64,000 bases of DNA, taken from the NCBI RefSeq assembly GCF_041361465.1, contig NZ_JBGKAC010000001.1:372001-436000 (forward strand), read 5' to 3'. The notes below the pieces were generated by a model, which was not told where the DNA came from, did no database searches, and saw only the letters and a program-made list of their open reading frames with translations. Shown piece by piece: positions 12,411-14,941 of this stretch (position 1 is its first letter; every line of letters starts with the position of its first letter). Position numbers and translations under genes: made by a program. The DNA is from Halobaculum sp. MBLA0143. GTDB taxonomy: Archaea > Halobacteriota > Halobacteria > Halobacteriales > Haloferacaceae.

Positions 12411-12440
12411 CTTTTAAGTACTCCAGTTATCAGGCTGGAG
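12411..12440. promoter_or_regulatory. TTTTAAG box followed by an inverted repeat
   Basis: A TATA-like TTTTAAG at 12412-12418 is followed at once by the inverted repeat CTCCAG-(8)-CTGGAG (12421-12440). The layout repeats 50 bases downstream, just before the small peptide gene. Possible upstream promoter or operator; this is inference from sequence only. Confidence 0.35.
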
Positions 12441-12460
12441 TTGTGTTGTGTAACGCAGGG

Positions 12461-12489
12461 ATTTTAAGCTCGATTATAGAAAACTATAA
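12461..12489 (+). promoter_or_regulatory. Probable promoter and palindromic operator of the small secreted peptide gene
   Basis: TTTTAAG at 12462-12468 resembles a haloarchaeal TATA box. A perfect palindrome TTATAG-AAAA-CTATAA (12474-12489) lies between it and the expected transcription start, about 25 bases before the ATG at 12515. A protein bound there would block initiation. The stretch is much more AT-rich than its surroundings. Confidence 0.5.
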
Positions 12490-12514: not shown

Positions 12515-12787
12515 ATGGCTCGCAACGAGTCGACACGGCAGTCGCGAGCGCTCGGCCGCCTCCGTGCGGGCGCGCGGCTCGTGATCACCCTGGCACTCGT
12601 CGTCGGGCTGCTCACCGCCCAAGTCGGGTCGGTGGCGGCGACCGGCGGCGAGGCCGACGCAACGACCTCCGAGACTGATGTCGACGTCGAGTGTGGCTTC
12701 TGGAGTGCTCTCCTCGATTGGCTCGGCCTCGTGGACAACGGCTGTGCCAGTGCCCTCGAGAACGGGATGATCGGCATCGGCCCGTAG
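12515..12787 (+). CDS. Small secreted peptide precursor with two cysteines
   Basis: A 90-residue protein of no family I recognise. Residues 1-21 are basic, 22-41 are a hydrophobic signal-type helix (LVITLALVVGLLTAQVGSV) and a cleavage-like AA/T follows. The predicted mature part of about 48 residues starts acidic (EADATTSETDVDVE) and ends in an amphipathic hydrophobic tail with Cys60 and Cys77 (ECGFWSALLDWLGL, then DNGCASALENGMIGIGP). One disulphide could close a 16-residue loop. The gene has its own AT-rich promoter with palindromes. It runs convergently into the CHAT protease gene, with 30 bases between stops. Mature size, signal and tail recall small archaeal antimicrobial or signalling peptides, but that is inference. 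Confidence 0.75.
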   Translation: MARNESTRQSRALGRLRAGARLVITLALVVGLLTAQVGSVAATGGEADATTSETDVDVECGFWSALLDWLGLVDNGCASALENGMIGIGP

Positions 12788-12817
12788 TCGCCCCGACACC
12801 ACCCCCCAGTTTTCGGC

Positions 12818-14941
12818 TCACCGACGCTCGTCTAGCTCCTGCTGGAGGTCGTCGGGCCACCACAGCTGTTGTTCGAACACGATGGGCGACTGCGCGATGT
12901 TGAGGTACTCCTCCAGCTTCGACCGGGAGACGGAGTACACCCGCTCACGCCCCAGGAGGTACCGTCTGTTCGGGTCCTCCATCAGGGTCGCACGGGCGTA
13001 GCCACCGTGTGCCCACGTCTCTAGGTTCTCCGTCAGGATCCGGAACTCGTCGTCGTCGACGCGGAACAGCCACCGCTTCGGCGGGGCCAGCGCGTCGTTC
13101 TGTGCGACGACGTGTGAGCCGTCGCCGACGACGGCGTAGTCTTTCGGCATCAGGAGCTGCCGTCGGGCGTAGTCCAGCCCCCGCTTGACCGAGAACCCCA
13201 GCACCATCAGTCGGGCGAACGTGGTCCCCACCCGGGCGGCCTCGCTGTCGAGCACGCTCTCGAAGGTGACACCGCCCGCGATAGACCCCTTCCGGATCAA
13301 CGCCTCCCCCTCCGGGTACGACCCGCAGGCGTTGAGGAAGAACGTCCGTGCGTTCGACTCCGAGAGACTCTCCGTCGAGAGGTAGCCGTCCGCACACTCC
13401 AACCCCTCCCGTTCTCGGTGGCCGATGAAGTGGACCAGGTCGTGACCCGCCTCGAACGTCCGGGCCAGCTCCGCGACGGAGATGTTCTCTCGGACGGTGA
13501 TGTCGAGGTTCAGCTCGTCGGCCCGCGTCTCGTAGTGTTCGATGGCGCGGTCGTGTTCCGCTCGCATGTCCACGTTGTTCAACACGGCAGCCACGGTGAG
13601 CCCGCTCCCCTCGCTGTCGAGGTACTTCCGCCGGTTCTCGTACGCCTCGGGGAACGTCTTGAACACCTCGATCGGCACGTCGTCGGCGAGCCAGCCGTGT
13701 TCTTGACCCGGACCCAGCTCCGGCTGCACCAGGTCGACGTTCGACACCTCCCGCGTGACACGCCGGAAGGCGTCCGGCTCCCGGTCCGGCAGGTCGCGGG
13801 CGAACGTGTCGTTCGAGGACAGCTCCACCCACTCGTCTTCGGTCAGGTCGTGTGACTCCGGGAGAAAGAAGTGCGGCAGCTTCTGGAGCAGGTGCGACAG
13901 CGTCGGGACGTGGTCGAACGTCGGCGCGACGTACATCGAGAGGTGCCACTCCGGAAACCGGTCACGCACCGCGTCGAACTCCGTGTCGAGGTACGTCCGC
14001 AGCCGTTCTGCCAACGGGGCGTCGTACAGCCGCTCCGGATCCAACTCCAGTTCGTCGAACGTGTCCGCCACCGTCAGCCGCTCCCCGTGTGGCCCGGCGC
14101 TGCGGGCGACACAGTCCAGGTAGAAACACCGAGCCAGCGTCTCCGCAGTCCGTCGCTGGAACGTCGGCAGCTCCCCCAACGGCTCCACTCGGCCGGCGCC
14201 ACGCAACGCCGGCTCCGCGTCCGGCTCCACCCGTACCTCCGCTCCGAGGTAGTGGATCAGCGACGCCCCGGTGAACAGGTACGCCACGTCCGGCGGCACC
14301 ACGAGTTCGATCCCGGTGTCCGGCCGGTCGTCCGTCACCGTCTCCGGCACCTCCGTCCGGTCGCCGAACTCGATCCGAGGCGGCTCGTTCCGGAGCGTCG
14401 GCCAGGTGCGGTCCGGCGACGTGGTCTCGTTGGCGCTCCCCATCGTCGTCAGCGCCGTCGCGACACCCTCGACCGTCTTCGGGACCGTGACGGTCGCCTC
14501 CACGATGTCCACCTGGCTCTCGAAGGCGACCGCGACCGGCGTCTGCTCCCGAAACTGGAGCACGTACCGTTCGCTGCCCCCCTCGGTCGCCTCGAACTGC
14601 ACTGTCGCCGGCCCGTCACACCGGATGAACAGTCGCACGTTGGCGTCCACCCGCAGGAGGTACGGCTCCCTCCCGAGCCGTTCGGTCTCGTCCGGCGCCG
14701 CCTGCCGAACCTTCCCGGTGTCCAACTGGATCAGCTCCGTCACCACCGGCGGGAGTTGGAGGCGTCTGACGACGCCCGACACGGTGTGTTGCGGGTCGTC
14801 CGGACCCGTCTCCACCGTCGACAACGCGTCCGCGACCGACGGCCCCTCGGCTGCCGACGACCACCCCTCCGTGCCGACCACGACGGTGTTCTTCGCCGCG
14901 TCGGTTACCCGGATGCCGTCGTCCAGCCAGGTCGTTTCCAT
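12818..14941 (-). CDS. CHAT-domain caspase-like protease
   Basis: A 707-residue cytoplasmic protein without signal or membrane segment. The C-terminal third is a CHAT peptidase of the caspase/separase clan: the catalytic His is in LVHFIGHRERE (about residue 508) and the catalytic Cys in TFFLNACGSYPEGE (about residue 539), followed by the usual GGVTF strand and a helical end. The N-terminal 370 residues form a beta-rich acidic region (LRVDANVRLFIRCDGPATVQ) that may bind a ligand or partner; I know no name for it. The ATG at 14941 is preferred because AGGTG lies five bases before it; a GTG at 14947 is also in frame. It sits between lipA and the 2-oxoacid dehydrogenase genes, beside a small secreted peptide. 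Protease class is confident, substrate unknown. Confidence 0.85.
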   Translation of the reverse strand: METTWLDDGIRVTDAAKNTVVVGTEGWSSAAEGPSVADALSTVETGPDDPQHTVSGVVRRLQLPPVVTELIQLDTGKVRQAAPDETERLGREPYLLRVDANVRLFIRCDGPATVQFEATEGGSERYVLQFREQTPVAVAFESQVDIVEATVTVPKTVEGVATALTTMGSANETTSPDRTWPTLRNEPPRIEFGDRTEVPETVTDDRPDTGIELVVPPDVAYLFTGASLIHYLGAEVRVEPDAEPALRGAGRVEPLGELPTFQRRTAETLARCFYLDCVARSAGPHGERLTVADTFDELELDPERLYDAPLAERLRTYLDTEFDAVRDRFPEWHLSMYVAPTFDHVPTLSHLLQKLPHFFLPESHDLTEDEWVELSSNDTFARDLPDREPDAFRRVTREVSNVDLVQPELGPGQEHGWLADDVPIEVFKTFPEAYENRRKYLDSEGSGLTVAAVLNNVDMRAEHDRAIEHYETRADELNLDITVRENISVAELARTFEAGHDLVHFIGHREREGLECADGYLSTESLSESNARTFFLNACGSYPEGEALIRKGSIAGGVTFESVLDSEAARVGTTFARLMVLGFSVKRGLDYARRQLLMPKDYAVVGDGSHVVAQNDALAPPKRWLFRVDDDEFRILTENLETWAHGGYARATLMEDPNRRYLLGRERVYSVSRSKLEEYLNIAQSPIVFEQQLWWPDDLQQELDERR

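Follow-up and report, generated by a model that had tools for sequence, protein, structure and literature searches.

Several caspase-fold proteases of the CHAT family and clan CD have been described together with partners, including Craspase (Csx29-Csx30), SAVED-CHAT, separase-securin and the gingipains. Securin occupies separase as a pseudo-substrate, and cleavage after Arg or Lys is common among clan CD proteases. Among the RRNPP(A) systems of Bacillota (Rap-Phr, arbitrium and Rgg-SHP), tandem peptide units are known in the Phr pheromone precursors (PMC11343458). In archaea, a caspase-like activity has been reported in Haloferax volcanii, together with the absence of homologous genes (PMC3615174). 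The signal was left unidentified in the first detailed study of archaeal quorum sensing (PMC12240190), and archaeal peptide signalling is essentially uncharted. Herein, we analysed a convergent pair of genes, one for a CHAT-like protease and one for a microprotein, in a 64,000-nucleotide stretch of the Halobaculum sp. MBLA0143 genome (the window).

The first-pass annotation had described a 90-residue signal-like peptide with Cys60, Cys77 and a hydrophobic tail, facing a CHAT protease with intact His and Cys motifs across 30 bases between the stops. Both the peptide gene and this layout were confirmed. The microprotein gene (12515-12787, plus strand) encodes a basic N-terminus, a single signal-peptide-like hydrophobic segment with an AxA-like end (residues ~22-42; 12578-12640), the Cys60 to Cys77 segment CGFWSALLDWLGLVDNGC (12692-12745) and the C-terminal tail ENGMIGIGP (12758-12784). 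The protein thus terminates in GMIGIGP, whose xxGP end is conserved among partners. An orthologue of 64% identity is present in a sister species (genome G159), and the comparison gave a dN of 0.25, a dS of 0.94 and 22/19/41 changes at the three codon positions. Because dN is far below dS and third-position changes dominate in an orthologue of this identity, the window peptide is a genuine coding gene. In a third species (G161), the peptide is likewise convergent with the orthologous CHAT gene and the same dehydrogenase gene adjoins. In the fourth genome (G160), the orthologous CHAT gene is flanked by lipA and pdhA, and no peptide could be recognised beside it. A search with the window peptide alone returned two real relatives, and the remainder was noise; 65-aa matches in genus g22 were rejected, being antisense to an acyl-CoA-synthetase-like gene.

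Two further features that the annotation had emphasised proved to be local. Upstream of the peptide gene, the AT-rich region (12421-12489, plus strand) does contain two inverted repeats, CTCCAG-8-CTGGAG at 12421-12440 and TTATAG-4-CTATAA at 12474-12489. In two sister species the AT-rich, promoter-like stretch alone was kept and neither repeat remained a palindrome, and a palindromic operator was therefore rejected as a key feature. Similarly, the Cys pair is present and is kept within its own orthologue group, but it is not a general property of the partners, which carry 0-3 Cys residues, and it was rejected as well. A second partner orthologue group in the window's genus (L073, L081, L089 and L094) carries two closely spaced Cys residues in the tail, a possible hint that members of that group reside in an oxidising environment outside the cell.

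The CHAT-like gene (12818-14941, minus strand) encodes 707 residues, and the AlphaFold model of the product had a pLDDT of 89 and a pTM of 0.89. Over residues ~331-615, the model matched gingipains, separase, SAVED-CHAT and Craspase with Z scores of 13-19.5 (RgpB, 19.5; separase, 17; SAVED-CHAT, 16.3), which places a gingipain/separase-like caspase-fold region at residues 332-612 (13106-13948). The catalytic residues are His508 (13418-13420) and Cys539 (13325-13327). His504, His508 and Cys539 are invariant in CHAT alignment A2, and the His508/Cys539 dyad is kept in 172 of the 176 aligned CHAT proteins. A third Cys (Cys516, in GLxCxDG, 13394-13396) was invariant in 141/141 partnered CHATs and was present in 34/35 partnerless ones. 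The N-terminal region (residues 1-331; 13949-14941), whose structural prediction the annotation had recommended, is modelled as beta-rich over residues ~1-150 and alpha/beta thereafter; against the PDB, its first 330 residues reached a Z of 7.5 at best, a weak match inside the noise range. About 95 residues beyond the caspase fold form a C-terminal domain (residues 613-707; 12821-13105). Neither a signal peptide nor a transmembrane segment was seen in the sequence or the model. The protein matched no Pfam or NCBIfam profile. Of 43 relatives, two were hit by the Pfam CHAT profile (best E 6e-4), and searches of PADLOC, NCBIfam and PDB sequences were uninformative. By its modelled structure, the window protein is a caspase-fold protease of the CHAT/clan CD type, with predicted proteolytic activity.

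The annotation had proposed that peptide and protease form a functional pair and that co-occurrence in haloarchaeal genomes would show it, and this proposal was strongly supported across Halobacteria. At least one CHAT relative occurs in 144 of 170 genomes of the window's family, and about 11 paralogues were counted in the window's genome. We scored 165 distinct CHAT loci and 845 control genes for a convergent ORF with an exact GP end within 330 bp past the stop, and found one at 119/165 CHAT loci compared with 35/845 controls (Fisher P 3e-83). With a narrower range of -40 to +60 bp, the counts were 99/165 and 26/845 (Fisher P 4e-67). The spacing between the two stops varies, and the gene ends often touch or overlap. 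The peptide types also track the CHAT paralogue (Mantel test, 0/2000 overall and 1/5000 in the window's genus). Accordingly, CHAT genes were not consistently peptide-less, nor was the peptide unconserved. The module's conserved features are its convergent gene order and the xxGP tail at the C-terminus of the microprotein; the Cys pair and the palindromes are local. Profile searches with CHAT and DUF7503 found no relatives in viral contigs. In f17, a different family of the same phylum, the distant CHAT relatives (L231-L234) had no adjoining GP microprotein.

About a fifth of the CHAT loci had no detected partner. In the window's genome, 8 of the 11 copies have one, with the GP terminal or a few residues short of the end. 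The three partnerless copies comprise a truncated one (L077, G000:C2:227000-236200), one that has lost the His/Cys dyad (L078, G000:C2:177500-187600) and one that is intact. Across the alignment, His508 and Cys539 were kept in 141/141 CHATs with a partner and lost in 4/35 without (P 0.0014), one of these four being a distant relative whose alignment is possibly unreliable. The other 31 partnerless CHATs are dyad-intact, as is the orthologous locus L082, which has no detected partner. This pattern departs from an obligate toxin-antitoxin pair, in which an intact toxin never occurs without its antitoxin.

The partner microproteins differ in build. Those of the window's relatives are long and signal-like, the partners in Halorussus and Haladaptatus are moderately hydrophobic (44-53 aa), and those of Natrialbaceae are soluble proteins of 38-51 aa that end in KRVSTYGGP and have no signal-like segment. 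The partners of a second CHAT clade (clade 2; 43-48 aa) belong to Pfam DUF7503 (PF24335) in 17/17 cases; the window peptide, too diverged, does not match this profile. A DUF7503-like profile was matched in 164 of 195 genomes of the order, and in ten genomes 49 of 60 such ORFs were convergent with a CHAT gene. The GP end was present in 48 of 53 distinct copies, and an (H/N)P(R/K) motif beside the hydrophobic segment was nearly invariant. In genome G636 (L260, L261 and L267), DUF7503 occurs on its own in five scattered, nearly identical copies, away from any CHAT gene; the three copies that were read have MARKALQNAVAQHPKAVGALFTSAVALSQVQSTLAVWGCGSLGP, and the set resembles a mobile or recently duplicated gene. 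Pfam lists DUF7503 and DUF7504 solely as families of unknown function, and the pairing gives DUF7503 a candidate role. Outside subscription papers and preprints, a literature search on DUF7503 found nothing.

The Gly and the Pro of the GP end each occur with all four of their codons, and all three stop codons are used after them. Since every synonym is used, selection on GP acts at the protein level. GP also persists inside tandem repeats and where a few residues come after it. In genus g18, three species have a leader, a hydrophobic segment and one tail. Nine other species of this genus have lost the hydrophobic segment and encode leaderless arrays of tails, in which a 13-residue unit, e.g. 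YTADGNGGGISGP, is repeated 2 to 14 or more times; one array was partly masked. We infer that the working part of the microprotein is the C-terminal tail of about 7-10 residues with its GP end. The annotation had called the peptide secreted. This fits the many members with a signal-like leader, but in related pairs the partner is a soluble or tandem-repeat protein that lacks one. Because a signal-like segment is absent from the Natrialbaceae partners and from most of those in g18, Sec export is disfavoured as a general step.

Hypervariable tails were found in genus g22 (probably Halorubrum; 39 species with usable sequence). Here, the leader and the hydrophobic segment are almost invariant (leader dN ~0), and the tail differs in nearly every species, with the last two residues alone kept (tail dN 0.33). 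The protease shows the same division. Residues 1-612 are conserved (dN 0.03-0.22), and residues 612-707 differ at 55-60% of sites (dN 0.53-0.58). As the genes converge, the tail and the C-terminal domain form one contiguous hypervariable cassette. An elevated dS characterised the tail and the C-terminal domain but not the flanks, a sign of allele exchange besides selection. The tails differed at 2.13 of seven positions between nearest neighbours in the C-terminal domain, compared with 2.85 for nearest core neighbours and 3.66 for random pairs (0/20000 permutations; paired P 0.004). A partial Mantel test of tail against C-terminal domain was weak (linear, 346/5000; rank, 587/3000); the global rank version was not significant, and significance was confined to the nearest-neighbour tests. 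As the two adjoin physically, linkage could by itself produce co-variation, or at least part of it. The divergence ratio of C-terminal domain to core was about 5.7 in g22 and about 2 in other genera; the extreme cassette was seen in g22 only.

We also compared the gene neighbourhoods. Clade-1 CHATs (L035, L037 and many others) often have a TbsP-like regulator downstream, with the microprotein gene between. Directly upstream of several clade-2 CHATs lies a DUF7504 (PF24336) protein, with or without HalOD1 (L268, 1404-2234; L207, 1024-1734), and at 9 of 23 clade-2 loci, in some of the genera, a HalX response regulator follows beyond the microprotein gene on the strand of the latter (L207, 4216-4806; L209, 4333-4914). 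The window's own copy has lipA upstream and none of the TbsP-like, DUF7504/HalOD1 or HalX neighbours. Judged by gene content, the neighbourhoods look more like signal transduction than a defence island. The g9 genomes, which we take to be Haloferax, carry one CHAT of the haloarchaeal family. Its locus includes DUF7504 and a HalX regulator; the flanking sequence that was read, ~2 kb on each side, showed no rdfA/sph3-like gene. A link to DdfA and the quorum sensing of H. volcanii was not established, although both involve HalOD1-type proteins; the disk-forming signal of that species is proteinase-K resistant.

Given this evidence, we propose, with a rough probability of 0.5, that the two genes form a module in which the tail is the specificity ligand of its own protease and sets its activity. 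The protease of the module, a CHAT-family cysteine protease with a caspase fold, would be cytosolic, and the gene of its cognate microprotein converges on the 3' end of the protease gene. The hydrophobic leader, itself dispensable, would deliver the tail, and the tail would bind its own protease, probably through the C-terminal domain, and thereby gate proteolysis. Each paralogous pair would have its own tail. The tail is presumably exported, and the most likely use of the module would be peptide signalling or self-recognition. The annotation had offered toxin or abortive, processing and signalling readings, which cannot be told apart by sequence alone; the hypervariable tails, the tandem tails and the co-varying protease domain speak for a ligand that confers specificity, such as a signal. 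It is possible, and we suggest it tentatively, that the module serves self-recognition or quorum sensing throughout haloarchaea. The hypervariable C-terminal domain would then recognise xxGP peptides that are exported or otherwise released, pherotype-like cassettes of this domain and the tail would be swapped whole, and the outcome would be peptide-controlled proteolysis in archaea.

An intracellular inhibitor or antitoxin is the next reading to consider. Here, the tail would hold the protease off as a pseudo-substrate until the microprotein is lost, which would account for the soluble and repeat forms in the cytosol and for the finding of partners with dyad-intact CHATs only. The fold is also related to separase and gingipain, each of which is held by inhibitory partners. 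Although the leaderless forms lend it some plausibility, we consider this reading rather doubtful, as evidenced by the persistence of intact CHATs without a partner and by AxA-type leaders and hypervariable tails that would not be expected of a simple inhibitor. Less probable still is a substrate or effector role, in which the protease would cut the microprotein, for example after (H/N)P(R/K), and free a membrane-active hydrophobic peptide that harms the cell in a gasdermin-like manner. The near invariance of this motif and the clan CD habit of cutting after Arg or Lys agree with such a role, but some partners have neither a hydrophobic segment nor a PR site, and conservation and amplification centre on the tail. 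The constant leader, variable core and diversity among paralogues would also fit the precursor of a secreted, halocin-like antimicrobial peptide, for which the CHAT protein would serve in maturation or immunity. We regard this as improbable, given that the tails are mostly tiny, neutral and rich in Gly, Ala and Ser, that the neighbour tables examined show no transporter or immunity gene directly adjoining the pair, and that no members were found in viral contigs. Finally, Gly-Pro preceding a stop codon can slow translation and the gene ends often meet, but an arrest peptide, termination pause or overlapping terminator in place of a protein ligand is hardly credible in view of the free use of synonymous and stop codons, the retention of GP in repeats and ahead of further residues, and the variable spacing to the CHAT stop.

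The ligand reading makes explicit predictions about the protease domain and the peptide residues that determine specificity. The pair is a concrete, widespread and genetically tractable entry to archaeal peptide signalling and to the caspase-like activity of haloarchaea. As a lead only, a haloarchaeal CHAT gene may underlie the activity reported for H. volcanii (PMC3615174). The protease superfamily is known; its pairing with a microprotein as a system, and the pherotype-like evolution of the pair, appear to be new to the literature outside subscription papers and preprints.

Compared with the described CHAT and clan CD systems, the window protein shares the caspase fold and the His/Cys dyad. 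It differs in its N-terminal part, which is neither TPR nor SAVED, in a family that the Pfam CHAT profile barely detects, and in its partner, a convergent, GP-ending microprotein of 40-100 aa. Craspase (TPR-CHAT, type III-E CRISPR) has TPR fused to CHAT, whereas the N-terminal model here is beta-rich. CHAT-gasdermin modules have an adjacent gasdermin gene, whereas the microprotein matches no gasdermin profile. Within the haloarchaeal family, clade 2 has DUF7503 partners and, in several cases, an upstream DUF7504 gene, and the window pair has neither. Unlike the TPR receptors of RRNPP(A) systems, the haloarchaeal partner is a caspase-fold protein whose model contains no TPR or helical-repeat array; the pairs are archaeal, the genes are convergent and leaderless forms exist. 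Nevertheless, the haloarchaeal pairs resemble RRNPP(A) systems in the short precursor adjoining a large cytosolic partner, in the many paralogous pairs per genome, in the C-terminal position of the putative active end and in tandemly duplicated units such as those of Phr propeptides (PMC11343458).
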